Assembly (NCBI GenBank): GCA_002887195.1
Contig: PJAB01000313.1
Coordinates: 1-29,943, forward strand
Reading direction: 5' to 3'
DNA length: 29,943 nucleotides
Origin: Chrysochromulina parva
Taxonomy: Eukaryota; Haptophyta; Prymnesiales; Chrysochromulinaceae
In this document: positions 1 through 21,262 of the stretch, piece after piece
Position numbering within the stretch: the stretch's first letter is position 1
Layout: the number at the start of each line of letters is the position of its first letter
The notes under the pieces: generated by a model
What the model saw: the letters and a program-made list of their open reading frames with translations, nothing else
The model's database searches: none
What the model was told of the DNA's origin: nothing
Translations under genes and position numbers: made by a program

Positions 1-120
1 TCAGAGGCCATCAGAGGCCATCAGAGGCCATCAGAGGCCATCAGAGGCCATCAGAGGCCATCAGAGGCCATCAGAGGCCATCAGAGGCCATCAGAGGCCA
101 TCAGAGGCCATCAGAGGCCA
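1..120. repeat. Perfect decamer tandem array, 12 copies of TCAGAGGCCA
   Basis: Twelve identical head-to-tail 10-bp units run from the first base of the window, so the true array may be longer. Degenerate relatives (CCGAGGCCAT, CAGTGGTCAT) continue at 150-200. The array lies inside the second dehydrogenase intron. In gene sense the unit reads TGGCCTCTGA, which puts a TGA into every frame over 30 bases, so it cannot be coding. Confidence 0.97.
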
Positions 121-214
121 CGTCGACTAATTGCAGTTGAGCACAGCAGAGGCCATCAGAGGCCATCCGAGGCCATCAGTGGTCATCAGTGGTCATCCGG
201 CCTTGACCTCTCAC
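1..214 (-). other. Intron 2 of the aldehyde dehydrogenase gene, incomplete at the window edge
   Basis: The donor in gene sense is AATCAG|GTGAGA, with the exon ending at 215. The intron continues past base 1, so its acceptor is not visible. It is made largely of decamer repeats (perfect at 1-120, degenerate at 150-200). It also holds a copy at 130-142 of the 13-bp exon sequence at 218-230; in gene sense that copy ends in AATTAG, which looks like an acceptor. What would follow it is the repeat array, which has stops in every frame, so I do not treat it as an exon. Confidence 0.75.
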
Positions 215-1739
215 CTGATTGCAGTTGAGCCACACAGTGCCCGCCTCAAGCTGGGCTCCCACACGTTCACACCGCTCTGGGTCAGCGGAGAGGACGGCAT
301 GCGCGAGGCCGTAGGGCGAGTCGTTAGCGAGCGCGACAGCCTGTTCCTCGCTCTCAAAGCTCTGCACGCATAGCACCGGGCCGAAGAGCTCCGCCTGCCA
401 CGCGGATGAACTCCGAGGGACGTCCGCAAGCACTGTCGGCTGCACGTAGTAACCGCCGGCTAGGGCAGCCGGTAACGCGCCCGCCGCGACGCGCCCGCCG
501 CCACAGACGAGGATGCTGCCTTCGGCGCGCGCCTGTGCCACCGCTCCGACGAGGCGCAAGGCAGCCTCCTCCGTGATGACGGCACCCATTTGGGTCGTCT
601 CGTCGAGAGGGTCGCCCATCCGCACCGCCGCCGCGCTCGCCCGCAGCGCCTCAAGCACTTCGTCCTTGCGCGAGACGTGTATGAGCAGGCGCGAGGTCGC
701 GCAGCACACCTGACCCGACGTCATGAAGATCCCCATCATCGCCCAATCGACGAGCGCCGTCATGGGCGCGTCCTCGAGGACGATGAGTGCGCCCTTGCCG
801 CCAAGCTCCAGGCCGGTACGGCGCACGTGCGGCGCGCTCGCGCCGAGCATCTGGACAGCGCCCACGAAAGCGCCGAGGATCAGACGCAATCAGACGCAAT
901 CAGACGCAATCAGGGGGCGCTCGGGGGGCCATCAAAGGCCATCAAGACCGGTAGGGCGCGCACCTGGACGCCATCAGACGCCATCAGACGCAATCAGGGC
1001 CATCAGGACCGGAAGGGCGCACCTGGACGCCGGCGCGCGTCGAGCCGGTAAACGAGAGATAGTCGATGCGAGGGTGCTCAATGAGGCGCGAGGCGCCGTC
1101 GGAGGTGCCCACGGGCGGGCCGCCGGTGAGCACGCTCAGCGCACCCTCGGGCAGCCCCGCCTCGGCCTGAGCCAGCTTGCCCAGCTCGAGGCATGTGAGC
1201 GATGCGAGCGGAGACGGTTTGAGCAGCGTCGCGCATCCGGCGGCGAGCGCGGGCGCCACCTTGCAGGAGGCCTGCAGGAGTGGGAAGTTCCACGGTGTGA
1301 CGCATGCGACAACACCGGCCGCGGATGCGACCACGCGCGACCTGAAGGCTTCGTCGGGCAGCGCGAGCGGCTGCGGCGTGAGCTCCTCCGCCGCGATCTC
1401 CGCATAGTACTCGAAGCAAGCGGCGCTCGCGGTCATGTCGCTTACGCTCTCCCGGATGGGTTTGCCGCAATCGCGCGTTTCGAGCTCGGCGAGTCGCGAT
1501 GTCTCGCGCCGAATCGCCGCCGCCAGCGCCCGCAGCGACGCGGAGCGTACGTCGACCGACTCCGGCCGTGCCCATGGTGAGCGCGCGCAGGTGGCAGCAC
1601 GGCTGACGGCCGCATCCACCTCTGCGGCCGATGCATCGGCGATCTCGGCGAACACACGACCATCACGCGGCGATATCACGGCGATCGCGCGGCTCGAGAG
1701 CGAGCGAGCGAGAGCGCGGCGCATGGGCGTTCTCCTCAT
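1..1739 (-). CDS. Aldehyde dehydrogenase (NAD(P)+-dependent, betaine-aldehyde-dehydrogenase-like), 3' end off the window
   Basis: Oxidises an aldehyde to the acid using NAD(P)+; the substrate cannot be told from sequence. Exon 1 is 1023-1739 and exon 2 is 215-850 (minus strand), both phase 0, giving 451 residues with no stop in the window. Seen: the PWNFP oxyanion-hole segment, FTGST, general-base Glu254 in LELGGK, and catalytic Cys288 in GQVCC. The join at residues 239/240 restores ordinary ALDH spacing between FTGST and LELGGK without gaps. The protein stops at LNCNQ, so roughly the last 50 residues (PFGG and SG.GRE.G motifs) lie beyond an intron that runs off the left edge. I chose the ATG at 1739, which gives an Arg/Ser-rich N-terminus resembling a mitochondrial presequence; ATGs at 1766 and 1724 are alternatives. 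It is divergent from the AP2/J-domain gene, 177 bp away. Confidence 0.9.
851..1022 (-). other. Intron 1 of the aldehyde dehydrogenase gene (172 bp)
   Basis: In gene sense the donor is CAG|GTGCGC (exon ends at 1023) and the acceptor is GTCCAG|ATG (exon resumes at 850). Both edges are phase 0, and removal restores the ALDH fold. GTCCAG occurs immediately before both splice points. The interior holds three decamers TCAGACGCAA (880-909) and related units at 972-997. The donor region (1001-1031) is also present as a second, slightly diverged copy at 940-972. Confidence 0.88.
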
Positions 1740-1916
1740 TACTTCCAAGTCAAGACAAGTCAGCATGCCAACCGACACGAGCCAGCTGCGCAGCCCGTTG
1801 AGGCGGCGGAACTATAGTCACGTCAAGTCCTTTCCAAGTGACAAGTGAACTTGAACTTTACTCGCTCGAGCCTCGACTGTGAATTTCCGCGACACCTTTC
1901 CCTCCGCTCACGTGGC
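1740..1916. promoter_or_regulatory. Divergent intergenic spacer, likely bidirectional promoter (ALDH / AP2-J gene)
   Basis: 177 bp separate the two chosen ATG codons, so both promoters must lie here or overlap the genes. The spacer holds ACTATAG at 1811-1817 and GTCACGTCAAGTCC at 1817-1830, plus AAGTCAAGACAAGTC near 1747. The 14-mer recurs in the other short divergent spacer at 26140-26153. No transcription start can be seen directly. Confidence 0.5.
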
Positions 1917-2855
1917 ATGCAAGCCGCGAGGAGCCGCGTGCTCAACACGTCGAGCGGCCGATGGATAACGCCGACGTTGCGGTACATGGTCGAAGAGGAC
2001 GGCGTGCGTGATCGCAGCCGTGCAGCGTCCGAGTGCGAGCCGCAGCTCATCAAAGGCACGAAGCGGCGGCGTAGGAGGATTCGCCTACCGGAGGGGACGA
2101 GCCGGGCGCTCATGGCAGGCGATGTCGTCGCGATCGAGGCTCTCGCTTTGGGGCAGCAGTGGGCCCAGGCTACGCATCCGAAATCGTGGCGGTCGGCCCT
2201 CGTCCATGGCCGCGTCATTGGGAAGGATTCCGATGGGTTCAGGGATTGTGACTTTGGTCACGAGCCCGTCAAGTTTGAGCGCAGAGCGTTTGTCGAGCGG
2301 CCGGGCGAGACGATAAGCGAGCGGCGAAATTCAGACGCGAGGTCAGATGATGCATGTCTGGAAGAGGCAGAGGAGGAGGAGGAGGAGGAGGAGGAGGAGG
2401 AGGAGGAGGAGGACGAGGGCGAGGAGGAGGAAGAGGAGGACAGCGAAAGGTACACTGAGGAGGAGACAGGTGACCAGCACCGGCGCAAGCATCACCCTTG
2501 GCTGATGGCCGAGACCAAGCAGGTCGCTGTGGCCCCTGGCAAGCGATCCGGAAGCCGTCCTCGTGAGAGCGAGCAACACATGGATGAGCTCACACACGCC
2601 TGCCCCGTCTGTGGGAAGGCGTCCATATCGAATGGAGGGCTCTATAGGCATGAGTGCGCGCATCAGCCTGAGCTGTTCGATGACGAGGCAGACGCGGTCG
2701 AAGAGAGCGAGGTTTGCCAAGGGATGTGCCCAGGGCCAGCGCCGTCGCCCACGCCCTGCACTGCTCAGCCCGACTCCACCGCAGCCACCGCACCCGTCGC
2801 AGTGGCCCCGCCACAACCAGAGTCTGTACCGCCGCCGCCGCCGCCGCCGCCTCAT

Positions 2856-2889
<34 letters not shown>

Positions 2890-3983
2890 TGCCGGGTGGA
2901 TGGACTGCCGCGCCGCCGCCGCCGCCCAAGCCGGCGCCGAGTTGGGCACCGGATCGACCCACGGCTGCCGCCCCCGCGCCCCAGCGACCTCCGTACCCGC
3001 AGCCCAAGCCGAAGAAACAGCCCAAGCCGCAGCCCCTCACGGTGGAGGAGGTGAGGGCGGCCGCGGCGGCCGAGGGGCTCGAGCTGGAACCGTCGTGGAA
3101 CAGCCAGTCCGGCTACAAGGGCGTGCGCACAGGTATACATAAGGGCAGGTATACAGTCGAGCTGCGCAGGTATGGCACGCATCCCGAGAAGAGGTACCTC
3201 GGCAGCTTCGCGACGGCCGAGGAGGCCGCCTTGCAGTACGCGAGGTACATGGGCGCGGAGCGAGCGAGGGCCCCCTCGGAGGGCGCCGTCGCGGGCACCC
3301 CATTCCTGCATACGATGGGTTTGGGCTGTGCGCGGGGGCCGGCGGCTCAACGGCTCCCAAGCACGCTCGGAGGTACCTCATTTGAGAAGCCCTCCCGAGG
3401 GCTGCTGCATGCCCTCGAGGAGCTCACGAAGTACAAGGAGGCCGCAAGCCCGGGGAGGGGCGTGCCGCCGCCGAGCGTACCGTCGACAGCCCCACTGCCT
3501 GCACGCACCTTTTCGTCCGCCTCCACCGCCTCCACCGTCTCCACCGCCTCCGCCGCCTCCACCGCCTCCGCCGCCTCGGACGACACTCAGGTGGGCGCTG
3601 GCCGGCCGTCGCGGCCGCGGCGGACTGATCAGCTGCTTGAGCCACTCGTCGAGACACTGCGCGAGCTCGAGCGCCGTCTCGAGCGCGAGCGCCACGCGCC
3701 AGTTGAGGGCGGCGCGTCCGGGGCGAGGGGCGTGGCGGAGGCGTCTGCGGACTTGCCTACCGAGGCTGCGGACTTGATCGAGTCCGTGCTGGGCGCGACC
3801 TGTGAATGGCGCTGTCTCGGGCTCGACCCAGCAGTGCCGGCGGCGCGCGCGGCAGTCCGCAAGCGCTTCCTGGCCCTTGCCAAGCGGCTGCACCCGGACA
3901 AGTGTGCCGACCCGCGCGCCCGAGAAGCCTTCCAGCGGCTGCAGCAGGCATTCAGCCGCGTCGAGCCGCTCGGCTTTGATTAG
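1917..3983 (+). CDS. C2H2 zinc finger / AP2 / J-domain protein
   Basis: A 688-residue intronless protein with three domains. From the ATG at 1917: an acidic Glu tract (about 148-177); a zinc-finger pattern CX2CX12HX3H starting at Cys229; poly-proline (about 304-330); an AP2/ERF-like DNA-binding domain (about 398-446, with YKGVR, YTVELR, LGSFATAEEAA); a Ser/Thr/Ala-rich spacer (about 533-560); and a C-terminal J domain (about 629-688) with HPD at 659-661. AP2 domains bind DNA, and the HPD motif stimulates Hsp70 ATPase. Together they suggest a nuclear regulator able to recruit Hsp70, which is inference. The reading frame is open upstream to a GTG at 1845; the first ATG is 1917, and 1986 is an alternative. 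The gap to the next gene is only 123 bp. Confidence 0.85.
2365..2450 (+). repeat. GAG trinucleotide tract encoding poly-Glu
   Basis: A near-pure GAG/GAA run encodes an uninterrupted acidic segment in the AP2/J protein. A related CCG tract at about 2826-2910 encodes its poly-proline. Both are in frame and are likely to vary in length between strains. Confidence 0.85.
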
Positions 3984-4106
3984 AGTGTTGTCAGTGAATT
4001 TTCGGCGCGTCGTACCGGCACGGCGCCAACGAGCTTTTGCTCAAAAGAAGAGGGGAGAGGCGCTCGCTGAGCGAGAGGCAGCCGTCGAACTCGCCGCCCG
4101 ACCGCA

Positions 4107-5915
4107 ATGGCCGGCAAGAAGAAGAAGAAGAAGCAGCAGCGGCCTGTGCCAGCGGACCATGCACTCGTCAAGCTGCTGCCCTCGCTCAAGGAGGCCGAGC
4201 GCAAGGTGCGCGCCAAGTTTGAGTCGGTCTCGGGCTTCCAGATCAGCCGGCCGCGCGAGGACGAGGAGACCTTCGGCGAGCTGATGGAGAAGCTGCAGGC
4301 GATCGAGGAGCAGGTGGTTCAAATGATTGACGGGCTCTCGCAATTTGAGGTCGGCGAGCTCGTCACGTGGATCATCCCGCTGCTCGATGCGGGGAGCGTC
4401 GACTTCCTTGCGGGCACACGCCGGCAGGAGGGTCTGCAGGTGCGCACGGCGGCGCGCAAAGCGCTCTGCCGCAGGGACTCGTGGGATGACGAGGAGGAGG
4501 AGGAGGAACACAGCGACGGCTCGAGTGAGAATGGCTCGTCGCGCAGCCAGGACGCCTCCCCTTCGACGGCCAAGGAGCCGAAGAAGATGACGGAGAAGGA
4601 GTCCCAATACACAATCGGCCACTTGGTGGCGGCCTACGCGGACGCGGGGCTGATCGTGATGCGCTCGCAGCTGTGGGGTCCGGCGCGCGATGGCGACCAC
4701 CTCGCCCTCACCGCCCTCCTCGCCCTCGATCCCTGGACGGTGGACGAGCCTGGCCGCGTGGGCGAGGGCTTCACGTCAGCGCTGCAGGTGGCGTGCGCGG
4801 GCGGCCATGTTGAGTGCGTCGAGGTGCTGCTGAAGCACCGCGCGATCTTCCGGGACAAGGACTGGCAGTCGACGCCGCGCCCCTTTGTTTGCGCCTCCAT
4901 GCTCACTGGCGCCGGCTACTACGACGGCGGCAAGCCCCCAGGAGGCATCCTCCACTTTCAGTCGTCGTCGCTGCCGAAGCGGCGGGTCGCTCGCGAAACG
5001 TACGTGTACATCATCGACCGGTTGCTCGAGGAGGCAACCTTCTGCGAGCCGGGCGACCGCGAGATGCTCTGCAACACGCGCTTCGCCATGCTCAACGTGG
5101 ATCCACCGCCCCTGGTGGAGGGATCGGGCACGCTCGTCTGCCCCCCGTACACGCCGCCCCTGCCTCCGCCCGTGCCCGACGCACCGAGGGTGGCGGCGGC
5201 GACGCCGCGCTACATGGCGGGCACGGGGGCGCATGTGGGCTCCGCTGTGGGGTCCGCTGTGGGCTCCGCTGTGGCGGGTGCCACCCCGCGCGATGGCGGC
5301 GTCGGGCGTGCGACGCCCCGAGGCCCTGGATTCAACCCCCTAGGCCGAGGCGTCTCGCCACCTATGCGCGGGGCCAACGTTGGCGGGTCGACGCCGCGAG
5401 AGGGGCGCATGTCGGCCGGCGTTGGTCGGGTTGGGCATGCGACACCGCGCGAGGGGGGTGGAGGCGTCGGACACAGGACCCCGCGTGAGGTGACGGTCAG
5501 CAGCGGGGCGGTCGGTAGCCGAACCCCGCGCGACCTGATCTCGAGTGCGACGCCGCGACTAGGCAGGGGGGTGTCCACGCCCGTCGTCGGTGGCTCGGCC
5601 TCGTCGCCGGCGCTGCTTCACTCGATCTCGGCGTCCAGGGTAGCGGCTGCCACGCCACGTGAGGCCAGCAAGGTGGGCGGTGCGACGCCACGCCATGACG
5701 TTCGCGGCCAGCTGCTCCAACGCAACGGACCAGGACCGAACGTGACGAGCTCGCCCACGGTCCTCGGCGCGGCGCCTGGCATGCCGACCTTCGACAAGCC
5801 TCCGGTGGTCATCGCGAACAAGGGGAGTGGCAAGGTGAGCAGCGCGACCCCGCGTGATAAGGCGGCGTCGCGCGGCGTGGCATCGGGGCTGAATGGCCTG
5901 CTGATCGCGCGCTGA
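4107..5915 (+). CDS. Ankyrin-like protein with TPR-tripeptide repeats (unknown function)
   Basis: 602 residues with an ATG at 4107 directly followed by a Lys run (KKKKKK). One clear ankyrin-like unit is visible at about 221-253 (ALQVACAGGHVECVEVLLKH); neighbouring helices may be degenerate repeats. Residues 128-165 are acidic and Ser-rich. From residue 366 to the end the protein is Gly/Ala/Val-rich and carries eleven copies of the tripeptide Thr-Pro-Arg, usually followed by Asp or Glu and preceded by Ala, Ser or Arg. Such Thr-Pro sites are typical targets of proline-directed kinases (inference). Residues about 377-388 include a short (VGSA)n repeat. I do not recognise a named family. The stop is at 5913-5915. 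Confidence 0.8.
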   Translation: MAGKKKKKKQQRPVPADHALVKLLPSLKEAERKVRAKFESVSGFQISRPREDEETFGELMEKLQAIEEQVVQMIDGLSQFEVGELVTWIIPLLDAGSVDFLAGTRRQEGLQVRTAARKALCRRDSWDDEEEEEEHSDGSSENGSSRSQDASPSTAKEPKKMTEKESQYTIGHLVAAYADAGLIVMRSQLWGPARDGDHLALTALLALDPWTVDEPGRVGEGFTSALQVACAGGHVECVEVLLKHRAIFRDKDWQSTPRPFVCASMLTGAGYYDGGKPPGGILHFQSSSLPKRRVARETYVYIIDRLLEEATFCEPGDREMLCNTRFAMLNVDPPPLVEGSGTLVCPPYTPPLPPPVPDAPRVAAATPRYMAGTGAHVGSAVGSAVGSAVAGATPRDGGVGRATPRGPGFNPLGRGVSPPMRGANVGGSTPREGRMSAGVGRVGHATPREGGGGVGHRTPREVTVSSGAVGSRTPRDLISSATPRLGRGVSTPVVGGSASSPALLHSISASRVAAATPREASKVGGATPRHDVRGQLLQRNGPGPNVTSSPTVLGAAPGMPTFDKPPVVIANKGSGKVSSATPRDKAASRGVASGLNGLLIAR

Positions 5916-5954
5916 GCCGGGCACGCCACGTGGCCTGCTGATCGCGCGCTGAGC
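5894..5954 (+). repeat. 24-bp direct repeat spanning the stop codon
   Basis: The last bases of the ankyrin-like gene, including its TGA (5894-5917), are repeated exactly at 5931-5954, 13 bp further on. The second copy lies in the 3' untranslated region, so it looks like a recent small tandem duplication. Confidence 0.95.
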
Positions 5955-6110
5955 GTGCCGCCATGGCGCCGCCGCCTACCCGCCGCCTTCCCGCCGACCC
6001 GCCGCCCGTGGGCCGCCTACCCGCCGCCCATGGGGCGCCTACCTGCCGCCCATGCGCGAGGAGTGAGCTCGCACGATGGAGGAGTGAGCTCCCACGATGT
6101 TGCGCATAAA
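5955..6110 (+). repeat. GCCGCC-type tandem repeats and 21-bp duplication in the 3' flank
   Basis: 5960-6055 is built from imperfect CGCCGCCTACC / CCGCCGCCCATG units. It is followed by two adjacent 21-bp copies at 6058-6078 and 6079-6099 that differ at one base (GAGGAGTGAGCTC then G or C). No conserved coding potential is seen. Confidence 0.85.
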
Positions 6111-7354
6111 CAACGCGAGAAATTGAGAGAGGGCATGCTAGAGCACGGCACCCTAGGATGGTGATGGCGGATGCAATTTGTACATGTGTCATGGAGGATT
6201 CCAGGCGCTGGAGGACATATCTTATGCGTGCGTTCCGGGTCAGTGTCCGTCATACAGTATCTCGTGAGTCACGTGTTATTAGGTTCTTAGTGATGTCGGT
6301 GCATCTGCATGGCGGCGATGTCTGCTCAGCGCGTCTGATGTGTCGTGTCAACCACGTGTGTGAGGCTGAGGACGGATTACAGCTCTCAGCCTCGAGCCTG
6401 TAACTCGCTGTACCTGTAGCTGGAACCGTGGAAGCTGCTAGCTCCAAGCTCGAAAGCTCGCGCGCGCCCCGCGGTACGGCGGTACGGCCTATCGGACTTC
6501 GGAGTACGCGAACTCGGGAGTCGGGTCTTGGCCGGTCGACCCACAACAGTACTCTCTTGTCTGACTCTACCGGTTACGTGGACGCGCACCGGGTCGAGGA
6601 AGCAGCAGGGACGAGGCGTGCGCGCGCCGCGGGGCCGCCCCGCGTCCCGCGGTGAAGTCTGGTGACGAGACGCGACTGTCGCACTGTAGAGCGATACAAG
6701 GAGAGCGAGGGTCGCGAGGCGGTTAGGTACGGCATACGGCGCGCGTGTTACGCTTATGGCGTTACTCCGGAGCCGTCCCGCTCCCGGCCGGGGCTTGCCC
6801 TTGCGTCGATGCGACAGTGCGTCCGGCGCGCCGGACCCGCCCTCGCACAGCGTCCCGACGGGATGTCGGTTGTCGCGGCGCGGGGATTTCCGGAACGCGA
6901 GTCGTCCGCGGGCGGCAGGCGGGATACGTGCGACGGACGGGAGATGCGAGATCCGATCCCCCCGGACGGCGGGCCGCGGGACCGGAGAACATGCAACATC
7001 GAAGATCCTTCGCGCGAGACGGTCACCATATAAGTCACCAGATACCCCTCCACGCCTGTTTTAGCTCGTTACTGCCATTTACCGATACGCGTACACGTGT
7101 CACGTCGAGGCGTTCACCGTAAAGATGAGACACACGCACCGCCCGGTGTCTCAAAACCCTCACGTCTCACCCAACTCTCAGTCCTCACAGTACCGACACG
7201 CATCTGTTAGATCTCACCGTTTGCCGCATGCCCTTGGGGTTACCGACAACGTGACATACGCGCCGAGATTATGTAGCCAAGATCACTGGATATGGTACCG
7301 CCACCCGCCGCCGACCTGCATGGACAGCCCACGCACTTGAGGTCGACGCCTGGC
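6111..7354. other. Gene-poor stretch between convergent genes
   Basis: About 1.2 kb with only short overlapping ORFs on both strands, none carrying a recognisable motif. No tRNA cloverleaf, rRNA segment or transposon ends were seen. Composition changes at about 6650-7030 (many CGCG and TCGCG words), followed by a TATA-like ATATAAG at 7027-7033. The longest plus ORF with an ATG here (6662 region to 7033) has no domain. It could hold 3' UTRs, a non-coding RNA or relic sequence; I cannot decide. Confidence 0.4.
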
Positions 7355-10437: not shown

Positions 10438-10635
10438 CGGGCCCACGGACCCCACGTCGATTTTGCCTTCGGCCGACACCTCACCGCACAAAGTTCGCAA
10501 ATGTACTCGACGAAACCGGATTGCGAAGAACATTTTCTCTCGAAAATCGATCTCTAACAGATACTTCGACAATCTTCCATACAAAAGAAGAGCACCCGGT
10601 ATGAATTCATTTTGGGGGGTCCCGCCGCGGCGGCG
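10438..10635. promoter_or_regulatory. Divergent spacer (co-chaperone / oxygenase)
   Basis: 198 bp between the two chosen start codons; it shrinks to about 100 bp if the co-chaperone starts at 10533. It must hold both promoters. It lacks the 14-mer found in the other short divergent spacers. Confidence 0.4.
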
Positions 10636-12458: not shown

Positions 12459-14386
12459 ATGAACAGTCGGGGAGTAGGCTTTTCAGGACTTTCCGCAGAT
12501 CCTTCCGCACCTCAAGGCCAGCCGCGCGCCATGCAAGCCGCGCCGCGCCGCCGCGCCGCGGTCTCACCCGCACGTGCGCGCCCGGCCGCGGCCGAGGCGG
12601 CGTCGCCCGCATCTTCAGCCCTTGCTTTACCACCACGACCCGTGCCGCTCCGCCGTTCGGCGACCGAGGATGGCTTCTGCTGCCCCATGTGCCTCGATAT
12701 CTTCATCGACCCGGTGACGCTCATGTGCGGCCACACGGCGTGCCGCAGCTGCCTCATCCGCCACTTTGAGAGCATCGATGCCAACCGCGCACATCGCGAG
12801 CAGCTGCGCGACTCGGGCTTCGCCACGTGCCCCCTCGCGCGCTGCCCGATCCCGTTCATCATGCCCGAGGTGAACTTCGTGCTGCGATCAACGGTCCTGC
12901 AGTCGCACCCCGAGCGCGTTGCCGCGCGCCTGCAGGGCGACGAGCCCGCTCCCGACGCACTCCAGGCGCGCATCAACTACCTGCACGCGCGCGCGGCCGC
13001 CTCAGGCTTCGGCGGCTTGTCGCTCGAGGACCGGCGGGTGGTGCAGCGCGAGCGGCTACGCAATCTGTACGCGCAGGGGATCCGGCTGCTCGTGGCGCGG
13101 CTGCCACAGATCACGCGCCGCTGGTTCTGTCGTGAGAGCGCCCTCCTCGTGCACCGCTGCGTGCGCGCGGCTGTGGCCGTCTATGCACTGACGCTCTGCT
13201 TCTGGGCGCTCGGCTGTCCGCTGTGGGACTTGATGAGGCAGGCCATCCGAGCCCCAGAAGCGCAGCTGCCGCAATCGGACTCGTTTTGCACGCGCCGTCA
13301 GGACGCGGCGCACGTGCTGGCGGAGACGACGATCGCGTGGCTCGTGGTCGTTCGCCTGCTCGTCGACTGGGCCGTGCTCGGGCTGTGCATCACTCTCACT
13401 AAGATTGGACAGCGTGCCCTCCTCTCCCGAGCGTCTCGCGGCTGGCTCGGGCTCAAGTGAGTGTCGTCGATCGGGGCTGAATGCGAGCGATGGCGTCCGA
13501 TGGCGTCCGATGGCGTCCGATTGCGAGTGATTGCGAGAGATTGCGAGCGGCTCACAGCTGGCTCAAGTGATCTGCTCCATGCCTCTGAGGACCTCTGATT
13601 GCGTGCCTCGTCAGCTTGGGGGGCTCTGATTGCGTGCCTCATCAGGTTCGGGCTCTGATTGCGTGCCTCATCAGGTTCGGTCTCTCAGAGCACACTCGGT
13701 TGCTCGATGCGACGATCATCGGGACGATCTTCGTCGGAACGGCGGTACGCTACCACGTGCACCTAGGCCACGTCGACGGCGCCGCGGCACTCGTGTGGCA
13801 AGACAGCCCGCACGCGTGGCGGCTGAGCTTGGCGACGGCGCTTGGGCTTTGCTTGGCGGCGTACCACGGGGGCCTGCTCGTGCTGCGCTCTGTACCGCGC
13901 TGGATGGTCCATTTGACCCTCGCGTATACCGGCCGTCATCTCATTAAGGAGCTTCCTGCAGAGTACGGGCCGCGCTGGTGGACTATCAAGCTCCTCCTCT
14001 GCCCGTCGCTCATGATCCATCTCGACCTGTTTGGGCTCGCGGCGGATGGGTCCCGCGCGGCCATGGCGTACGCCGCGCACGCGCTACCGTGGGCGTCGCT
14101 CCGGGCGCTCACGACGGCGGCCCGATGCGTGGTCGAGCGCCATGTCGAGCGCCAGCCGGCCTCTCTCTACGGCCGTACCCTGGATGAGCCCGCCGCAGAC
14201 AGTCTGCGCCCCCTTGGTCTGATCGCTCGCGGACTGTCGCCTCTAGTTTCGTGGATGGCTCTGATGATGCGTTGGCAAGGCGGTGCGTTAGACAACCCTC
14301 TCGGCGGCGCTCACGGCGGCGCGCGTGCCTCGCACGAGGTGAGCTTCGTCTGCTCATACTGGCTGAACATGACGCAGGGCTACTGA
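12459..14386 (+). CDS. RING-finger multipass membrane protein, probable E3 ubiquitin ligase
   Basis: Two exons, 12459-13456 and 13675-14386, joined in phase 2, give 569 residues. A C3HC4 RING lies at residues 75-129 (Cys75, Cys78, Cys90, His92, Cys95, Cys98, Cys124, Cys129), with the PVTLMCGH core typical of E3 RINGs. The rest holds about five hydrophobic segments (AAVAVYALTLCFWALG; IAWLVVVRLLVDWAVLGL; TIIGTIFVGTAV; ATALGLCLAAYHGGLLVL; LLLCPSLMIHLDLFG). This suggests a membrane-anchored ligase with the RING in the cytosol. The ATG at 12531 is an alternative start. Without splicing, exon 1 would end six bases past the junction in a TGA, so the membrane part depends on correct splicing. Confidence 0.83.
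13457..13674 (+). other. Intron of the RING gene (218 bp) with tandem repeats
   Basis: Donor CAA|GTGAGT, acceptor ATCAG|GTTCGG. Inside are three GATGGCGTCC decamers followed by three GATTGCGAGN decamers (about 13487-13548). At 13557-13570 is a copy of the exon-intron junction 13441-13460 lacking six bases. The 3' end has about three 29-31-bp units (CTCTGATTGCGTGCCTCRTCAG...), the last two of which both end in a usable ATCAG acceptor. The first of these acceptors (13645) would give an immediate TGA, so 13674 is the productive one. Confidence 0.85.
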
Positions 14387-14782: not shown

Positions 14783-16000
14783 ATGCAAGCTCAACGATCG
14801 GCGTATGTGCTGCGCGTGACGCTCGAGCGGGCCCCGCACGAAGGCTTCGGATTCGGTGTTCTCTTCGATGGCGATGCGGGTGTGCTGGCAGTCATTCGAG
14901 AGGACACACCGGCCTGGCGCTGTGGGCAGCTGCGCAATGGTGATCGCGTAGTGGCAATCAACGGGCAGCGAGTCCGTGTCGCGTCCGACTTGAACACGCT
15001 CATGCCCGCAGATGTCACCACTGTCACACTCGAGCTCATGCGCGGAGGGGTCACGAGCGCTGCCGCCACCTCCGCCGCCGGGGACGCCAAGGTCAAAGGA
15101 ATGAGCCCGGGCGGCGGCACAAACGGCGGCACCCCCGGAGATGCGAAGGTCAAAGCCTTGGGACCGGTCACCAGATGGGTCAACAGTCGAAGATGCAAGT
15201 CGCTCGTGCACGAGCGCGACTCGTTCAAGGCGAAAGCACAGGCCGACTCGGAGGCCGCCCAACAGTACAAGGCGCAAGCCGAGCGCCTCGAGAGGCAGTT
15301 GGATGAGGTCCTTTCGGCGCAAGAGAAGCTGCAGCACCAGATACAGCAGGTGAGCTCCAAGATTGCGGAGGTCAAGGGCGGTGGCCCAAGGGGCTCGCCA
15401 CGGCGCGTCTTCGTCGGACGGGCGGTGAGCGTCATCGTCCCAAGGCCAAGCTCGCCGACGGCAACCATCCTCGACCCTGCGGTGACGAAACCCATCGACC
15501 CTGCGGTGACGAAACCCAGCCCCATCATCCTCGACCGCTCATGGTCACCGCTCCCTTGCTTGCCGCGTGGCGGGTCCTCGCCACGCATGCAACGTATGAG
15601 TCCGCCTGAGGAGGTTGGTAAGGTGAAGCGCCTCTCGCGAGAGCTGGCCGCCGCTCTCAACCCCGAGAACCTGATTCCCAGACCTCTTTCTCCCTCCGCC
15701 GGCCTCAGCCGCGATGGTGCGCGGGTCGCGGCTGGGCATGCGAGCTCCGTGAGCTCGAGCCACGCGAGCCATGGAGGTGTGAGCTCGGGCGCCGCCGACG
15801 CCACACCGTCGCGTCGGCCGCCTGCCTCGCCCCGCCCCGCAAATAACAGCGTGCTCTCACCGGAAGACATGAACTATACGCAACTCAAGCTATTCCTGAC
15901 CTCGAATGACAAGGTCCCGCGCGACGAGGTGTCTCGGGCGGTGAGCCACAATGCACTGCTGGCCCTTCACGACAGGTATTACGGCACCCTGGTCATTTAG
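14783..16000 (+). CDS. PDZ-domain protein with coiled coil
   Basis: 405 residues, ATG at 14783, no intron. An N-terminal PDZ domain (about 9-90) shows the carboxylate-binding loop GFGF, then VIREDTPAWRCGQLRNGDRVVAINGQRV. A coiled coil follows (about 140-200; QAERLERQLDEVLSAQEKLQHQIQQVSSKI). After that comes a Pro/Ser-rich disordered region and a small helical C-terminal segment (about 360-405; MNYTQLKLFL, DEVSRAVSHNALLALHDRY). The protein ends in TLVI, which fits a class II PDZ ligand (hydrophobic-x-hydrophobic), so self-association is possible (inference). A 24-bp direct repeat at about 15470-15518 encodes two copies of DPAVTKP. It is probably a scaffold protein; the partners are unknown. 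Confidence 0.8.
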   Translation: MQAQRSAYVLRVTLERAPHEGFGFGVLFDGDAGVLAVIREDTPAWRCGQLRNGDRVVAINGQRVRVASDLNTLMPADVTTVTLELMRGGVTSAAATSAAGDAKVKGMSPGGGTNGGTPGDAKVKALGPVTRWVNSRRCKSLVHERDSFKAKAQADSEAAQQYKAQAERLERQLDEVLSAQEKLQHQIQQVSSKIAEVKGGGPRGSPRRVFVGRAVSVIVPRPSSPTATILDPAVTKPIDPAVTKPSPIILDRSWSPLPCLPRGGSSPRMQRMSPPEEVGKVKRLSRELAAALNPENLIPRPLSPSAGLSRDGARVAAGHASSVSSSHASHGGVSSGAADATPSRRPPASPRPANNSVLSPEDMNYTQLKLFLTSNDKVPRDEVSRAVSHNALLALHDRYYGTLVI

Positions 16001-16075
16001 GAACTCGCCGTGTTGAGCATATCCGCATCTCATCAGCCTTACATCTCGGGGGATAACTGTGCTTTATGAATGTTC

Positions 16076-16157
16076 AGTTCAGTTCAGTTACTACATAAAC
16101 AACAGACAACCTCATGGAAGCCTGACCCTAATGGAAGCAGACAAACTGAACTGAACT
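16076..16157 (+). repeat. 14-bp inverted repeat flanking the 5' leader of the EF-hand gene
   Basis: AGTTCAGTTCAGTT (16076-16089) is perfectly complementary to AACTGAACTGAACT (16144-16157), with a 54-base loop. The second arm ends one base before the ATG at 16159. If transcribed, it would form a stem abutting the start codon. TTATGAATG also occurs on both sides (about 16064 and 16157). Confidence 0.85.
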
Positions 16158-16158
16158 T

Positions 16159-18652
16159 ATGAATGGTGGTTGCCTTGTGCATGCCAACTGTTTGCGAGGT
16201 GAGAAGACTGTTTCAAAAATGGGATCTTCCCCATGCGGGTCGCCTGAGGGACACGGATACGTCTGGCTGGACGAGCGAGTGCATCTCAAGGCCTTAGTCA
16301 CCTTGCCACCTATCCCCCAGGTCAGCCCTCGGCCCAAGCGCAAGCCGGTTCCGAGCTTCATTAGAGCCGCTTACATGCCCCAGCAACCGGCGCCACCATC
16401 TCGCGACCTCGGCACCACTTCCCTGAAGAGCCACTGCTCGAAAAGCATGCCGCTGCTCCCGACCATGGCGGATGCTACAAAGCTGCACGACCTGAAGACG
16501 GTGCCGGACGAGCCCCCCGCCGAGACATCGAACACTGCGGCTGAAGCCTCAGCGGTGCGATTGCGATCACCGGTGCGATTCCAGCGTCCGAAAGCCCAGG
16601 TGGCGGCGCGGCCGACGGTGACGCTCGCGCCCATCAGCCCGGGGATGCGCAGCCCGAGGATGCGCGTGGCCACCGAGGACCTCCATACAGTCGGGATGCG
16701 GCTGGTGATGGAGCTGATGCCTCACCTGGCGTTGGTGGGCGCGACAGAGGCGGCCTCACCATCAGGACAGAACCAACTTCAGATACCCACGGAGGATGCG
16801 CTGCTCCCCTCGCAGCATGTGCAGCTGCAGCAGAGCCTGAGCCGCGAGCTGTGTGCGCACGTGGCAGACCTCATGCCAACCCTTGCAATCGGACTGGCCG
16901 ATCGCCCGCTGCCCCGCAAGACGTTTGAGCAGCAGGTGGCGAGGTTACTCGGGCTACGGGCAAGGGATGTGGGTCGGCCAGCGGCACGCGCGCTTCGCCG
17001 AGCGACATTCGCTCTGTTTGACTCTTGGGACTTGGAGGGAATGGGCGAGCTCGAGCTCGGAGAGGTCCTCAAGGTGCTCCGTCACGGCGGGAGTGTGCCC
17101 CGGAGGCCACGTCGAGATCGTCGAGATAGCATCTGCCAAGCCGAGATTGCGATGGCCGACCCGAAGGCGAAGCAGCCGAAGCGCAAGAAGCGCACGGCCA
17201 TGAGCGTGGCCAAAGAGGCACTGCAGGGGCTCGCCATCCAGAGCCCGAGCGAGCAGCTCCACTCGCGTGCCGAGAAGGTCTCACCTATCCAGCTCGAGGC
17301 ACTCCTCGCCGCCATGTGCGAGTCCGCGTACCTCGACCTCTTCAGGCGCTGGGACAGGGACGGCGACTGCACTATCAGTCCAGACGAGTTCAACGCGGCC
17401 ATCGCGAGGCTCGGCTTCCAGTTCAGCCAGAAGGTGTGCCGCGAGCTCTTTGACTTCTTCGACAAGGACCGCTCTGGCACGATCACGCTCGATGAGCTCG
17501 AAGCGACCCTGCTCTGGGCCAGCGAGCGCAAGAGGAAGCTACGCCCCTTGCTCGCCGGCTGGCGGCAGCTCTCTCTCGACCTCCTCGCCCATGAGGGGGG
17601 GCAGACATTGATCGAGCGGCTGCTGGAGCTGCTCCACACAAACGGGCTGCATCCAAAGGACGTCTTTCCAAATTGGGACGACGATGGCGGGGGTTGGCTC
17701 GGTCGAGAGGAGCTTGCAGACCTCATCTTCATGCTCGGGGGTATGCCTATCTCAACGGCCGAGTGCGATGCTCTCTTTGCGAGCTTCAACCTCGACGGCT
17801 CGGGACGCGTGACTTTCGCTGCGTTGAGCGCTGCGTTGAGCGCCGAGGCGCCCGTCGCGCAGCTCATGGCTGCCCTCGCCACGCCGAAGGTGATGGGGAG
17901 CCTCGCCACCCTCTTCAGTGACCGTTGGGACGTCGACGGCGACGGCGTGCTCACGCGCCAGGAGTTTGGGGCGGTGATGGACTCCATCGGCCTCCACTTC
18001 GCTGAGCCAGCCGCGCTGCCCGACCTCTTCGCGATGCTCGACAGCGACGGCTCAGGCGCGATCTCCCTTCAGGAGCTCGAGCATGCGCTCCGTTGGGTCC
18101 GCTCATGCGACGCGTGCCAGCAGCTGCGTGTGGAGGCGTACACGTTCACGGGCACCCTCTCTATCCAGGCCCAGATCCAGCGAGCGCTCGCTGCGCACTC
18201 CAGGGGCGTCCTGGAACTCTTCCAAGAATGGGATGTCGACCACGACTGCGTCATCACACACGCAGAGTTTGTACGAGCCATGCCTGTGCTCCAGCATGCA
18301 AGTGCTCACTGCGGCGCATCACCCTTCCCCACAGGTGCGAGCCATGCCAGTGCTTGGCATCAAAGCGTCGGCGGATGAGCTCTCGCAACTCTTCGACATG
18401 TTCGACCAGGATGGTGACACTTTCATCACCTACCGCGAGTTCAACCGTATCATGCGCAAGGTCTCCGAGGCCGAAGCCAAAGGAGAGACCCTCGAGAGCC
18501 CCAGCTGGCGGCCGCGCTTGCCCCCTGTGGCCGTCGTCGATCTCAAGACGCTTCGGCGTGACGTCAAGACGGAGTACCGGCTGAGGGGCCTCGACCACAC
18601 GGAGCTCGAAGGGCAAGTCACGCCCCTATTGTCACGCTCCAGTCCCTCATGA
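16159..18652 (+). CDS. Multi-EF-hand calcium-binding protein
   Basis: Two exons, 16159-18270 and 18335-18652 (phase 0), give 809 residues. The first 280 residues are basic and low-complexity. Nine EF-hand-like units follow, with loops at about residues 290, 398, 434, 508, 546, 592, 628, 692 and 728. Those starting DRDGDCTI, DKDRSGTI, DVDGDGVL, DSDGSGAI, DVDHDCVI and DQDGDTFI look able to bind calcium. DLEGMGEL is degenerate, DDDGGGWL has Gly at the fifth loop position, and NLDGSGRV lacks the position-12 acidic residue. This suggests a calcium sensor or buffer; no kinase or other catalytic domain was found. Without splicing, the frame ends at 18378 and the ninth hand is lost. The ATG at 16159 follows a potential leader hairpin. 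Confidence 0.85.
18271..18334 (+). other. 64-bp intron of the EF-hand gene, beginning with a copy of the next exon
   Basis: Donor TTT|GTACGA, acceptor CACAG|GTGCGA. The first 20 intron bases (18271-18290) match the first 20 bases of exon 2 (18335-18354) at 18 positions. Both would be read as VRAMPVL if translated, and weaker similarity continues beyond. The intron is therefore a 64-bp tandem duplication unit in which the upstream copy has become intron. Confidence 0.85.
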
Positions 18653-19027
18653 GGCCACAGCAGGCCGCCGCGGCTGCTGCCGCTCCGCCGGGCAAGTAAG
18701 TACTACTACACGTCAAGAGAGGCTTACCTTTTGGTTGTTTCTCTACTGCTGTGAATTGATATTGCTACATGGTTCTCGAACTCGATTCTCGTGTGCGGGC
18801 GATACACGTGGGGCCAGGGGCGTGCTGGGGCGAAAGTGGCTGCGGGCGCGCCAGTGTGCCTGTATACCGCGATCAGACTGGAGCGTACAGCTACAGGACC
18901 GGACCGGTGGTGCGGACTTTTGTGCGGTCTAAGTTAAAACCTCTCATCTCGGTTACTTTTTCTGGGGCTTCAGTAGTAAATCTCCATGATATCATAGTAA
19001 CAATGCCCAAGATGTAACAGGAAATCC
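18653..19027. other. Intergenic region
   Basis: About 375 bp between two plus-strand genes. A short Ala/Gly-coding GC run is followed by AT-richer sequence. No gene, repeat array or RNA was recognised. Confidence 0.4.
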
Positions 19028-21262
19028 ATGTATTCGCTCATGCCTCTCCCTTATCCGCGAGGCTGCTGGCTCTGTACTCTCTTCAACGTCGCGATGCTGG
19101 AGGCGCTGCGCACGCCAATGCTGCCACGGATGGCGGTCACGCCAGGCAGCAAGTTCACCATCTACGGTTTCGATGCCGATCAGATGGATGCCCTCGTTCG
19201 GCGCGGTGAGCTTGAGGCAGAGTTAATGCGTGAGGCGTTGCCGCTTGAGGCCCCTGCTGTGGAAGCGCCGACGGCAAACGGCGGTGCAGTTGCCAAGGGG
19301 AGCGGCACCAAAAAGGGCCGCACCAAAGCCATTAAGCCCACATCCATCCAAGCACGCTCTCGCCAGGCGCTCCTGGATGACGGCGTGGTCAGGATCAACA
19401 ACGTGCTCTCTGCAGCAACAGCGGGCCGGCTGCGGTCGGAGCTGCTCATCCGACGCGACAAGGCGTATGCCGCCATTGAAGACGAGGGTGCCGACTGGCG
19501 TGAGGACTTTGCTGACGTACTTCTCAAATCGAATCGGTGCGATCTACTGCTCCCTCTGAAGGGCTCGCCCACAGTGCAACGCGCATTGCGAGAGCTCTTG
19601 TTCGGAACCGCCGCGGCGCCTCGCAACCTTGAGAGCACGGGCCGCCGCCGCGGCAACGGCAGTAGCAGCAGTAGCAGCAGTAGCAGCACAAGCACCGTGA
19701 GCAGCAGCAGCAGCAGCAGCACCCTCTACGCGGTCCTTTGCGCGGCCTTCGGTGAGGATGCGATCTTGTATGAGCTTGCGGCCCTCATCTCGACGCCCGG
19801 CGCGCCACGGCAGCCTGTCCATCCCGACAACCCGCACCAAGATCAGCCCCCTCTCCTGACCTGCTTCGTGGCCCTGCAGGTACTCTCGCGAAGGGCCTCG
19901 GATGGCCTCTCTGCTGTGATGGCCTCGGATGGCCTTTATGCTGTGATGGCCTCGGATGGCCTCTCTGCTGTGATGGCCTCGGATGGCCTTTATGCTGTGA
20001 TGGCCTCGGATGGCCTCCCTGCTGTGATGGCTGATCTGATGGCTGGCCTGCCCTCCTTCCCTCCCCTCGCCCCTTCCATCTGCTCTCCCCTCTGCCTCAT
20101 CTCCCCTCATTTGCCCTCCCCTCTCCGCCTACTTTCCACCTGCTTCGTGGCGCTGCAGCCGATCAACGCGACGATGGGCGCGACACTCTTCCTGCCTCGC
20201 ACGCACACGGCGCAAGCCCACGCCGCATTTGGCGGAGGCGGCTCGGGCGGCCAGATGACCATCTCGAGCCGAGATGCGATGCTCCGAGATTGCGAGAGCA
20301 GCGTGGCCTTGCTCGGAACCGGCGATGCTGTCCTCTTCGACTCGCGCACGATGCACTGCGGCGGCAAGAACGAGGTCGTCGAGCAAGGCGGCGCGACGAG
20401 GGCGCTTTTCTGTATGCGACGAGGCTGAGGATCCCTCGAACCGAAGCGTGCGAGCATACCGCCTTACTTTCGGCCCGAGCCTCTACCGCTGCGCTCCGTG
20501 CGGCGCTGATCGCGCAGAGGAGCCATGATGCCCTTGGCGCTCTCTGAGCTTGCCCCATGACGCCCTTCCCATATGGCGCAAACGTCTCCTTGACTTGACT
20601 TGACTTGACTTGACTTCCCATGTGGCGCAGACGTCTCCTTCCGCAACCCTCGCATTGAGCAGCCTGTGGGGAATGTGGGCTCAGCTCGGGCCGACGTGGC
20701 GCGCCGCCAGTACACGCTGCGTGAGCTGCGTGCCAGGCTGGCTTCGCTCTGCTGGGACGACGACGACTTCGCTGCCGACGAGCAGGATGGCGCCGTCAAG
20801 TGCGATCCGTTTGACGAGACGCCCGAGGAGACGGCGGCAATCGCCTCGCTGCGGGGCGCCGCCGAGGCCGGTCAGAGCGAGGCGCAATTCAACTTGGGGC
20901 TGTGCTACAAGCGCGGTGAGGGCGTCGAGCGCGACGCGGCGGCCGCAGTGCACTGGTTCTCACGCGCGGCGCGTGAAGGGCACGAGCCACTCGCACAGAC
21001 CAACCTGGGCGTCAGTTACTACTTTGGCGAGGGGGTCGAGCAGAACGCGACCGAGGCCGTTGGCTGGTTTGGGCTGGCGGCCGAGCAGGGTGAGCCGAAT
21101 GCGATGCACAATCTGGGCATGTGCTACGCGCAAGGGGTAGGCGTGCCTCGCGCCGACAAGCTGCGGGCTCTCGAGCTGCTCGCGCGAGCCGCTCAGAAAG
21201 GGCACGGAGGAGCGCGCGCTGCCTACGAGATGCTCGCCGCGGAGCGCGAGACGCGGGCATGA
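19028..21262 (+). CDS. Phytanoyl-CoA-dioxygenase-like oxygenase fused to Sel1-like repeats
   Basis: Three exons (19028-19879, 20159-20411, 20631-21262) give 578 residues. An N-terminal region and a Ser run (AGC repeats, 19660-19722) surround and interrupt a PhyH-type 2-oxoglutarate/Fe(II) oxygenase. Metal ligands are His270, Asp272 and His350, with Arg365 as the likely 2-oxoglutarate anchor (TRALFYVSFRNPR). The second join creates that last motif, and the first restores FVALQPINATMGATLFLPRTHT. The C-terminal part (about 430-565) holds at least three Sel1-like repeats (AQFNLGLCYKRGEGVERD, TNLGVSYYFGEGVEQN, HNLGMCYAQGVGV), usually protein-interaction scaffolds. It is likely a hydroxylase recruited to partners; the substrate is unknown. 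Confidence 0.85.
19880..20158 (+). other. Intron 1 of the PhyH-Sel1 gene: stop-free, length divisible by three
   Basis: Donor CTGCAG|GTACTC, acceptor CTGCAG|CCGATC. It is 279 bp (93 codons) with no in-frame stop, so retention would add 93 residues, including a repeated ASDGL-AVM motif, in the middle of the catalytic domain. The 21 bases ending at each splice point (19859-19879 and 20138-20158) are the same apart from one mismatch, and both encode TCFVALQ. Confidence 0.8.
19894..20030 (+). repeat. 27-bp minisatellite, five units, alternating subtypes
   Basis: The unit is GGCCTCGGATGGCCT followed by CTCTG or TTATG and CTGTGAT. It is made of two GATGGCCTCK decamers plus seven bases. Subtypes alternate (CTCTCTG, CTTTATG, CTCTCTG, CTTTATG, CTCCCTG), implying growth by a 54-bp dimer. 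It lies wholly within the first PhyH-Sel1 intron. Confidence 0.88.
20412..20630 (+). other. Intron 2 of the PhyH-Sel1 gene with duplicated acceptor
   Basis: Donor TTCT|GTATGC, acceptor GGCGCAG|ACGTC, phase 1, 219 bp. The 27-bp acceptor region (20614-20640) has an upstream copy at 20565-20591 with two differences. One of these changes the acceptor GCAG to GCAA, which would disable it. The copies are separated by TTGAC pentamers, about five in a row, at 20590-20615. Confidence 0.83.

Follow-up and report, generated by a model that had tools for sequence, protein, structure and literature searches.

Probable introner-type intron gain with long target duplications in Chrysochromulina parva

How does an intron come to carry a second copy of its own splice junction? 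The window analysed here, the whole 29,943-bp contig PJAB01000313.1 of the haptophyte Chrysochromulina parva (assembly GCA_002887195.1), raises this question at six introns in four genes. A first-pass annotation had read the six as a rule for every mappable intron and as the mark of one recent process that creates or lengthens introns from local exon DNA, either by tandem duplication of a segment containing AGGT or by introner insertion with target-site duplication (TSD). The origin of introns is a question of long standing; the introner families described so far mostly resemble DNA transposons.

Junction repeats at six introns of the window

Sequence comparison within the window showed that the six near-copy pairs are real and that each touches an intron edge.

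940-972 and 1001-1031, minus strand, ALDH gene; 29 of 33 bases identical, with a 2-bp gap
130-142 and 218-230, minus strand, last ALDH intron; 13 of 13 identical
13557-13570 and 13441-13460, plus strand, RING gene; 14 of 20 identical, with a 6-bp gap
18271-18290 and 18335-18354, plus strand, EF-hand gene; 18 of 20 identical
19859-19879 and 20138-20158, plus strand, PhyH-Sel1 gene; 20 of 21 identical
20565-20591 and 20614-20640, plus strand, PhyH-Sel1 gene; 25 of 27 identical

All six introns were said to be placed by protein continuity, which holds for three through protein homology and for a fourth through an EF-hand pair spanning the junction; one of the others is placed by frame continuity alone and one runs off the contig with only its donor in view. 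The repeat lies at both intron ends, with a spacing equal to the intron length, in only two of the six cases (18271-18334 and 19880-20158), and the other four are inner copies of a single junction. The first of the two is in the EF-hand gene.

18271-18334, plus strand, class A intron of 64 bp, GTACGA...CCCCACAG, from a gene finder blind to repeats and the EF-hand pair
18271-18290, plus strand, target duplication copy 1, inside the intron, supplying the 5' splice site; the spacing of the copies is the intron length
18294-18314, plus strand, class A core with 2 mismatches to GCATGCAAGTGCTCACCACGG, which has 1829 matched sites genome-wide
18335-18354, plus strand, target duplication copy 2, opening the downstream exon

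The donor GT of this intron is the start of the duplicated target, and the EF-hand pair (282-341) in the spliced protein crosses the junction at 300. The PhyH-Sel1 gene contains two introns.

19859-19879, plus strand, target duplication copy 1, the last 21 bp of the upstream exon
19880-20158, plus strand, intron of 279 bp, placed by gap-free alignment of five homologues across the junction
19894-20031, plus strand, 27-bp tandem array of 5.1 class B-like units within this intron
20138-20158, plus strand, target duplication copy 2, the last 21 bp of the intron, supplying the 3' splice site
20412-20630, plus strand, intron joining the PhyH exon to the Sel1 exon (product ...ALFYVSFRNP...), from the repeat-blind gene finder and homologues
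20565-20640, plus strand, 27-bp direct repeat (20565-20591 and 20614-20640) around a 22-bp GACTT filler

In intron 19880-20158 the donor is within the insert and the acceptor within the second target copy. The intron lacks an in-frame stop and the open frame passes through it; the spliced protein aligns without gaps over both junctions to the five homologues, which, compared as proteins and with at least one of them a transcript, read through the site of intron 19880-20158. In a profile search the PhyH match scored 41.5 bits over 256-364 when spliced and 32.1 bits over 374-457 when unspliced. Genes with proteins 94-97% identical in the aligned part differ in their number of 27-bp array units. 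At the second intron, the downstream copy of the 27-bp direct repeat (20614-20640) spans the acceptor. The closest relatives of the SulP and PhyH proteins of the window are metagenome proteins.

The remaining repeats belong to the ALDH and RING-finger genes.

851-1022, minus strand, ALDH intron, from PF00171 and the gene finder
940-1031, minus strand, ALDH donor-junction copies, 1001-1031 at the donor and 940-972 within the intron
1-214, minus strand, last ALDH intron in view, donor GTGAGA after ...WLNCNQ, read from the sequence; the contig ends with the window
127-230, minus strand, exon end GCTCAACTGCAATCAG (215-230), copied in the intron as GCTCAACTGCAATTAG (127-142)
13457-13674, plus strand, RING-finger gene intron with the class B end CCTCATCAG joined to GTTCGG, from the repeat-blind gene finder and frame continuity only
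13441-13570, plus strand, donor junction of the RING gene (13441-13460) with an inner copy at 13557-13570
13593-13685, plus strand, 29-bp tandem repeat of 3.1 copies in the RING gene, bearing the acceptor junction

The PF00171 match reaches profile position 221 before intron 851-1022 and picks up at 224 after it. Intron 1-214 leaves the contig inside a 10-bp array (1-197), with only the donor visible; its exon-end copy is identical at 13 of 13 bases in the span first annotated and at 15 of 16 if extended by eye. No protein family was found over the junction of the RING-gene intron.

Junction duplications among introns predicted without regard to repeats

The repeat-blind gene finder, run with a fixed background, gave 161 introns from the window, 20 unselected 10-kb stretches and seven loci picked for arrays. 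A junction repeat scoring at least 12 at exactly the intron length was found in 22 of the 161, against 0.2 expected from re-paired introns. Since the gene finder also yields doubtful introns, such as window 15992-16320, which joins two genes, we used a strict set of 42 introns from the unselected stretches and the window. In this set 12 introns had a junction copy scoring at least 12 anywhere, compared with 0.7 expected, and 10 of 38 did when the window's own four introns were left out. Junction duplications in introns are therefore far above chance, in keeping with the first-pass annotation. Its count of six in six does not extend to the genome, where 12 of 42 carry a strong copy; nor is the duplication a feature of every mappable intron, as 30 of the 42 score below 12 in a set that may include wrong introns.

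Two dispersed families lie between the target copies

The core of family A, GCATGCAAGTGCTCACCACGG, matches 1829 sites with up to 3 mismatches (916 + 913; control 0 + 1), and the end of family B, CTCATCAG, matches 3201 (1637 + 1564; control 0); their intron context was checked in the samples read. A cores were fetched without regard to repeats, and 84 of 100 listed exact places were read; the remaining 16 were the final 13 rows together with three others, of which one lies at a contig end, one is on C419 and one was already in L010. For B, 20 stretches from high up the list, with several rows skipped, gave 24 ends. Direct repeats flank 69 of the 84 A cores at a score of at least 11 (2.0 in the chimera control), 39 of 84 at a score of at least 20 (0.2 in the same control), and 17 of the 24 B ends at a score of at least 12 (0.5 expected). 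A clear repeat was absent at 15 A cores and 7 B ends, where short duplications may escape the test.

Duplication statistics were taken from 62 or 59 of the 69 A sites with repeats, selected by length and identity; these cut-offs bound the resulting ranges. At the 62 sites chosen for at least 15 bp and at least 88% identity, the copies agree at 1615 of 1673 bases. The median length of the clean A repeats is 25 bp, with quartiles of 19 and 30.5 (59 sites kept at 15-49 bp), and measured from the donor the length ranges over 2-45 bp (42 GT-AG sites). Terminal inverted repeats (TIRs) were not detected in 55 repeat-delimited inserts (mean best match 3.4, against 3.5 when shuffled), and the far repeat end showed no clear target motif. 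The ends of A inserts are ragged, differing from copy to copy.

The filler that separates target copy 1 from the A core lay outside the duplication in 30 of 33 cases with gapped extension, and no source was identified for three fillers that were searched, two of the searches giving one further match each, at 2 and 3 mismatches; for these two reasons the moving unit is only partly defined. For seven insertions, a search of the same genome with the joined empty site gave no empty locus; it returned the occupied loci and a single partial copy of 66 bp, located at the start of a contig and stopping short of the upstream flank. The A core was also matched on one IMG/VR contig with phage-like open frames, where it sits at the very end; this contig is probably a chimera, and we set viral spread aside.

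In the samples read, many similar sequences lie at intron ends at unrelated sites of one genome, as expected of introners in the functional sense. One recent genome-wide process making introns, as had been suggested, is borne out in this form; its proposed source in local exon DNA is not, or not fully, as in the cases studied the inserts are mostly members of dispersed families. Between the two proposed routes, the evidence fits introner insertion with target-site duplication.

Splice-site layout, frame and orientation

Two layouts were distinguished. The first, which has its GT in copy 1 and its AG ahead of copy 2 along the repeat diagonal, accounts for 42 of the 69 A sites, against 10.2 expected by shifting. 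The joined frame of these 42 is in phase at 31 and stop-free at 24 within 150 bp on each side; among the 13 with strong coding on both sides, 12 are in phase and 11 stop-free. The second layout is that of six of the seven full-length A copies: the end of the target copy lies at most one base from GTACGT, with repeat scores, taken without a control, of 13-40 in five and 10 in one.

The length is a multiple of three in 12 of the 17 A copies that leave no space for an acceptor (p = 0.0019), and GT-AG copies are spread over the length classes modulo three (12/14/13). By coding score, copies with an acceptor are sense in 46 cases, antisense in 3 and unclear in 2; those without an acceptor are sense in 17, antisense in 11 and unclear in 5. 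These frame and orientation readings depend partly on a home-made coding model. Removal of the class B intron at L016:5716-5873, in an arogenate dehydrogenase gene, gave a gap-free alignment over the junction to prephenate dehydrogenase (E 4.8e-48). Judged by protein continuity at this intron, at PhyH intron 19880-20158 and at the class A intron of the EF-hand gene, the inserts appear to be spliced out with the coding sequence restored.

Comparison with known systems

These introns were very probably gained from introners, with target duplications that exceed those of earlier introners. Earlier introner families have TSDs of 3-9 bp, with examples of 4 and 8 bp, and 72 of 177 families have TIRs (Gozashti et al. 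2022, PMC9860276). Both layouts appear in the Fig. 2 legend of that work, with Symbiodinium introners carrying the 3' site and those of Chrysochromulina the 5' site. Shared with those introners are similar new introns dispersed genome-wide, with one splice site carried and the other taken from the target duplication; the present inserts are only a few dozen bases long and ragged at their ends, with a median duplication of 25 bp and no TIR, and their in-frame copies lie in both orientations, a contrast with the general and example TSD lengths of that work (PMC9860276). The literature searched, which did not extend to supplementary survey data, yielded no introner family with duplications above 9 bp, although this genome may already figure in a survey under a different description.

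Amoebophrya introner elements are likewise repeated introns with direct repeats over the exon/intron edges, but in those elements the repeats measure 3-5 nt, inverted repeats of 8-20 nt are present and most splice sites are non-canonical, whereas the sites here are GT-AG with long repeats and inverted repeats absent (PMC7789003). Direct repeats also flank recent Daphnia introns, attributed to break repair, and are short there, unlike here (PMC3443670). Rogers and Bendich (2025, PMC11782384) describe direct repeats of 4-30 bp (mean 11.4) near the splice sites of all 213 introns examined; the two studies share repeats at or near both intron borders, taken as traces of insertion, while those reported here are longer, mostly near-identical, confined to a minority of predicted introns, set against re-paired controls and linked to dispersed families.

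Proposed mechanism and alternatives

The introns very probably stem from very short non-autonomous mobile sequences, that is, introners in the functional sense. A member of family A or B would insert between direct copies of its target, mostly of about 20-30 bp, and the spliceosome could then excise exactly one target copy plus the insert. In layout 1 the target copy would open the intron with GT and the insert close it with AG (TTCCCCACAG or CTCATCAG); in layout 2 the insert would open it with GTACGT and the target copy close it with CAG. A copies without room for an acceptor may be unspliced in-frame insertions. Because these tend to be multiples of three and both orientations occur, insertion appears largely blind to strand and splicing, and selection would retain the inserts able to splice or to keep the frame. 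Later unequal exchange and tandem expansion may have added the inner junction copies seen in four of the six window cases. Lengthening of introns by internal 10- or 27-bp arrays is a second and separate process.

For the insertion step we favour reverse transcription (target-primed) or capture at staggered breaks over cut-and-paste transposition, because the duplications are long and variable, the ends ragged and inverted repeats absent. LINE and SINE retrotransposition by target-primed reverse transcription leaves variable TSDs, 5' truncation and junction microhomology. It is plausible, at rather less than even confidence, that a LINE-type reverse transcriptase (RT) copies excised intron RNA, or another short RNA of the same sequence, into nicked exon DNA, from which 5' truncation and long variable TSDs would be expected. 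The TSDs are indeed long and of variable length, and the 5' ends of A inserts grade, by inspection, from a full 5' end, GTACGTTGATTGCCACTGATGACCTGCCTT, to the core (104 sites match the 36-bp full end and 1829 the 21-bp core at up to 3 mismatches, counts that are not strictly comparable). An 8-bp junction microhomology is visible by eye in L137, and there are five RT loci, four with open frames above 1300 aa; a comparison of one of the five placed it nearest to R2 and L1 RTs. However, the 62 inserts inspected lack a poly-A tail and are much shorter than LINEs or SINEs, the 3' ends vary too (ragged in layout 2, as the 5' ends are in layout 1), the two of five RT loci read (6 and 8 kb) contain no A core, and the three fillers searched gave no 5' transduction. 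Selection for splicing alone would, moreover, fix the end that bears the splice site.

More tentatively, short intron-derived DNA or RNA-templated patches may be captured at staggered double-strand breaks, as proposed for Daphnia introns. Capture allows both ends to be ragged and the duplication length to vary, and it accommodates the additional non-duplicated filler and the GACTT-filled 27-bp duplication of the window. Random capture, however, predicts many unrelated fillers and not one 21-bp core at 1829 sites, and staggers of about 25 nt at many sites require a cause. The inserts of Daphnia introns are not known to form one dispersed family.

A cut-and-paste DNA transposon of the MITE-like introner kind, a mechanism put forward for some algal introners in which the transposase makes its cuts at a fixed stagger and the resulting TSD supplies a splice site, is unlikely. 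Recruitment of splice sites from the TSD is described for introners (PMC9860276), and the families here are dispersed and present in both orientations. The fixed short TSD is missing, with quartiles of 19 and 30.5 bp and a range of 2-45 bp against 3-9 bp in earlier introners; the 55 inserts have no excess of terminal inverted repeats over shuffled sequence, the insert ends vary, and the far repeat end is without a clear target motif.

Simple tandem duplication of an AGGT-containing exon segment, the other route first named, has a precedent as a mechanism (PMC3443670), and in some cases (L025:8690-8979) the repeat extends to either side of CAG/GT. As a general cause it is very improbable, and the 1829 and 3201 matched sites of the two families refute it: at the A and B sites read, the copies enclose dispersed-family sequence rather than a copy of the exon, and at the A sites only the target copy is exon-derived. 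That the junction copies are chance matches in ordinary low-complexity intron DNA with background tandem repeats, as the 10-29 bp arrays in the window's introns might suggest, is hardly credible and refuted by the re-paired and chimera controls, which preserve composition and family content and give far fewer matches.

Significance

In this compact, GC-rich genome, two very short families matched at thousands of sites provide a recent and readable record of intron birth. At the sampled sites, long near-identical target duplications mark each event, and the splice-site pair is assembled in two complementary ways. The in-frame copies in both orientations form a control class that does not need splicing and by which the insertion step can be separated from the selection step; the mechanism can therefore be tested by comparison of sister strains. 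It is possible, if doubtful at present, that these are retro-introners: excised spliceosomal introns or their fragments would be copied by reverse transcription into nicked exons, in either orientation, and duplicate about 25 bp of target. If so, introns would replicate via their own RNA by target-primed reverse transcription, and splicing would decide only which insertions survive.

Junction repeats in introns predicted without repeats

The window makes up one contig (C313) of a genome of 45.07 Mb in 2199 contigs. We sampled this genome as 20 unselected 10-kb stretches, eight loci from one array search and short stretches at listed places; the GC content was 59-70% across the loci sampled, and introns were GT-AG. 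Genes were predicted with a self-trained finder (3-periodic coding model, GT-AG only) that ignored repeats, which gave 167 candidate introns, including 161 of 40-450 bp with full flanks. Repeat matches were scored +1/-2, and a match was assigned to the diagonal when its spacing equalled the intron length. Such matches with a score of at least 12 were detected in 22 of the 161 introns, against 0.2 expected after introns were re-paired. Most of these 22 introns open with a stretch of 10-35 bases that recurs at the start of the following exon, and in a few, including L002:2729-2826 and L004:2644-2757, the exon end was repeated at the intron end.

We also scored junction copies at any position in 42 strictly selected introns, taken from the window and the unselected stretches. 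Such copies reached a score of at least 12 in 12 introns and a score of 11 in 17 (0.7 expected for each); with the window left out, 10 of 38 reached a score of 12. The first-pass annotation had proposed such copies in every mappable intron from six repeat pairs, all of which are present in the sequence as real matches. Given counts far above the re-paired expectation, the phenomenon is real, but at 12 of 42 introns "every intron" was too strong.

Two insert families with target duplications

Many introns with junction repeats have one of two motifs, class A or class B, at their end. Class A consists of the core GCATGCAAGTGCTCACCACGG, then a pyrimidine stretch, then CCCCACAG or a variant; class B is built from 10-bp units (TGATTGCCTC or TGATGACCTC, for example) and ends in CTCATCAG. 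A motif-only scan of the sampled loci revealed repeats scoring at least 12 at 11 of 20 A-type ends (0 expected) and 15 of 41 B-type ends (0.2 expected). Genome-wide searches that tolerated at most 3 mismatches matched the A core at 916 sites on the forward strand and 913 on the reverse strand, against 0 and 1 for the reversed pattern; the B end TGATTGCCTCCCTCATCAGGT had 1637 and 1564 matches (control, 0), and the full 5' end GTACGTTGATTGCCACTGATGACCTGCCTTGCATGC was found at 104 sites (55 and 49; control, 0).

As an independent test we used 80 stretches that contain exact A cores from the list, taken before their flanks were known and covering 84 of 100 listed places; each control sequence combined the upstream half of one site with the downstream half of a different site. 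Direct repeats across the A core scored at least 11 at 69 of the 84 places (2.0 expected), at least 12 at 65 (1.1) and at least 20 at 39 (0.2), and 17 of 24 class B ends had repeats of score 12 or more (0.5 expected). The A-site repeats were 15-46 bp long (median 25, quartiles 19 and 30.5) in the 59 sites that passed filters of 15-49 bp and ≥88% identity, or 2-45 bp when counted from the donor GT (42 GT-AG sites). At 62 sites selected for repeats of ≥15 bp with identity of ≥88%, 1615 of 1673 bases were identical between the two copies, an agreement by which the A insertions at these sites look young. We found no clear target motif at A sites and no inverted repeats in 55 inserts. Additional filler separates the target copy from the A core, and a search for its origin, covering three fillers, identified no source.

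Two layouts of the splice pair

In layout 1, GT starts the target copy and AG ends the insert; along the repeat diagonal, this arrangement was observed at 42 of the 69 A sites, against 10.2 in the shifted control. When these 42 sites were joined, 31 were in phase and 24 stop-free (150 bp each side); of the 13 in which both flanks scored strongly as coding, 12 were in phase and 11 stop-free. In layout 2, GTACGT starts the insert and CAG ends the target copy. A target copy ended at most 1 base away from the insert 5' end in six of the seven exact full-5'-end sites read (13-40 bp; one at score 10 only; no control), and the insert 3' end varied among the layout 2 sites read. Both layouts occur inside the window.

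Junction copies in the six introns first mapped in the window
1-214: exon-end copy in an intron running off the contig
851-1022: intron containing an internal copy of its donor junction
13457-13674: intron with an inner donor copy, a 29-bp unit three times over the acceptor, and a class B end
18271-18334: intron with layout 1
19880-20158: intron with layout 2
20412-20630: intron with a 27-bp duplication across the acceptor and a 22-bp GACTT filler

Arrays of this kind may interrupt the assembly, since the contig ends within one, the 10-bp array of an intron at window 1-197.

After splicing, the PhyH-Sel1 protein encoded in the window aligned gap-free over both junctions with five homologues (...TCFVALQ/PINATMG... 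and ...ATRALF/YVSFRNP...), and therefore 20412-20630 is an intron within a single PhyH-Sel1 gene. Window 19028-21262 is thus one gene, not two, a phytanoyl-CoA dioxygenase fused to Sel1 repeats; the fusion is also found in ~50% identical homologues. With L016:5716-5873 removed, the encoded protein aligned gap-free across the junction with a structurally characterized prephenate dehydrogenase (E 4.8e-48), and the ALDH and EF-hand junctions were bracketed or spanned by the respective protein families. The introner-rich L016 stretch (C750:1-10000) carries prephenate dehydratase, arogenate/prephenate dehydrogenase and aminotransferase pieces together, perhaps as one fused gene.

In-frame copies and orientation

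Class A insertions were considered to have no acceptor room when the second target copy began within 12 bp of the core. The lengths of 12 of these 17 insertions were multiples of three (p=0.0019); GT-AG insertions were spread 12/14/13 by length modulo three. The five exceptions, sorted post hoc after this count, were L031 (layout 2), L087 (probably layout 2), L055 and L094 (in tandem copies) and L088 (non-coding by the model). The in-frame copies likely remain unspliced. Tandem class A copies, with the unit of target copy plus core repeated, were seen at L043, L055 and L094.

Based on the coding score, the copies in which an acceptor-like YYNCAG lay no more than 36 bp away (n=51) were sense in 46 cases, antisense in 3 and unclear in 2, and A copies without this acceptor (n=33) were sense in 17, antisense in 11 and unclear in 5. 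Inserts would enter exons in either orientation, with selection acting afterwards.

Short-term change of intron arrays

Because intron 19880-20158 has no in-frame stop, nine metagenome proteins translate through or into it; they share 84-97% identity with the window PhyH over 71-76% of its length. The 27-bp unit number differed (2, 3, 4 and 5) among the three relatives at 94-97% identity and the window. Among those at 84-86% identity, P0123-P0127 have another expanded segment, and their target copy has decayed (CFVEQ in place of CFVALQ); the sixth, P0129, kept window-like units; both P0129 and P0128 stop before the second copy. These differences in unit number and segment show array change to be a second and faster process. 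Whole intron units also occur in tandem, for example at L016:6706-6863 (79 bp twice), providing extra junction copies. A 12-bp array (GCTGTCCCAAGG, 8.5 copies) is located at window 22300-22400, downstream of a weak F-box-like match.

Route of movement and relation to known introners

The inserts form dispersed families with long, variable target duplications, take one splice site from the target, include in-frame copies and occur in both orientations. We infer that they moved by a target-primed route or by break capture. The genome search detected five RT loci; the RT of L130, the one compared, was closest to R2 and L1, with no link to the inserts in the data examined. The open frames of L130 (C1434:6001-12000) and L131 (C103:27001-35000) are 1345 and at least 1879 aa, with RT as the sole Pfam domain (below the family cut-off in L131). 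The phage-like IMG/VR contig L069 (IMGVR_UViG_3300027760_000958, 4300-4554) has an exact class A core at its end and, by eye, a near-repeat of ~39 bp that flanks a 10-bp CTGACGAACC array; this contig is perhaps a chimera.

Introners that recruit one of their splice sites from the TSD have already been described in PMC9860276, which gives TSDs of 3-9 bp for earlier introner families and of 4 and 8 bp in its examples. Compared with those introners, the duplications here are long and variable, the ends are ragged and in-frame copies are present, and these features set the C. parva inserts apart as a variant of introners.
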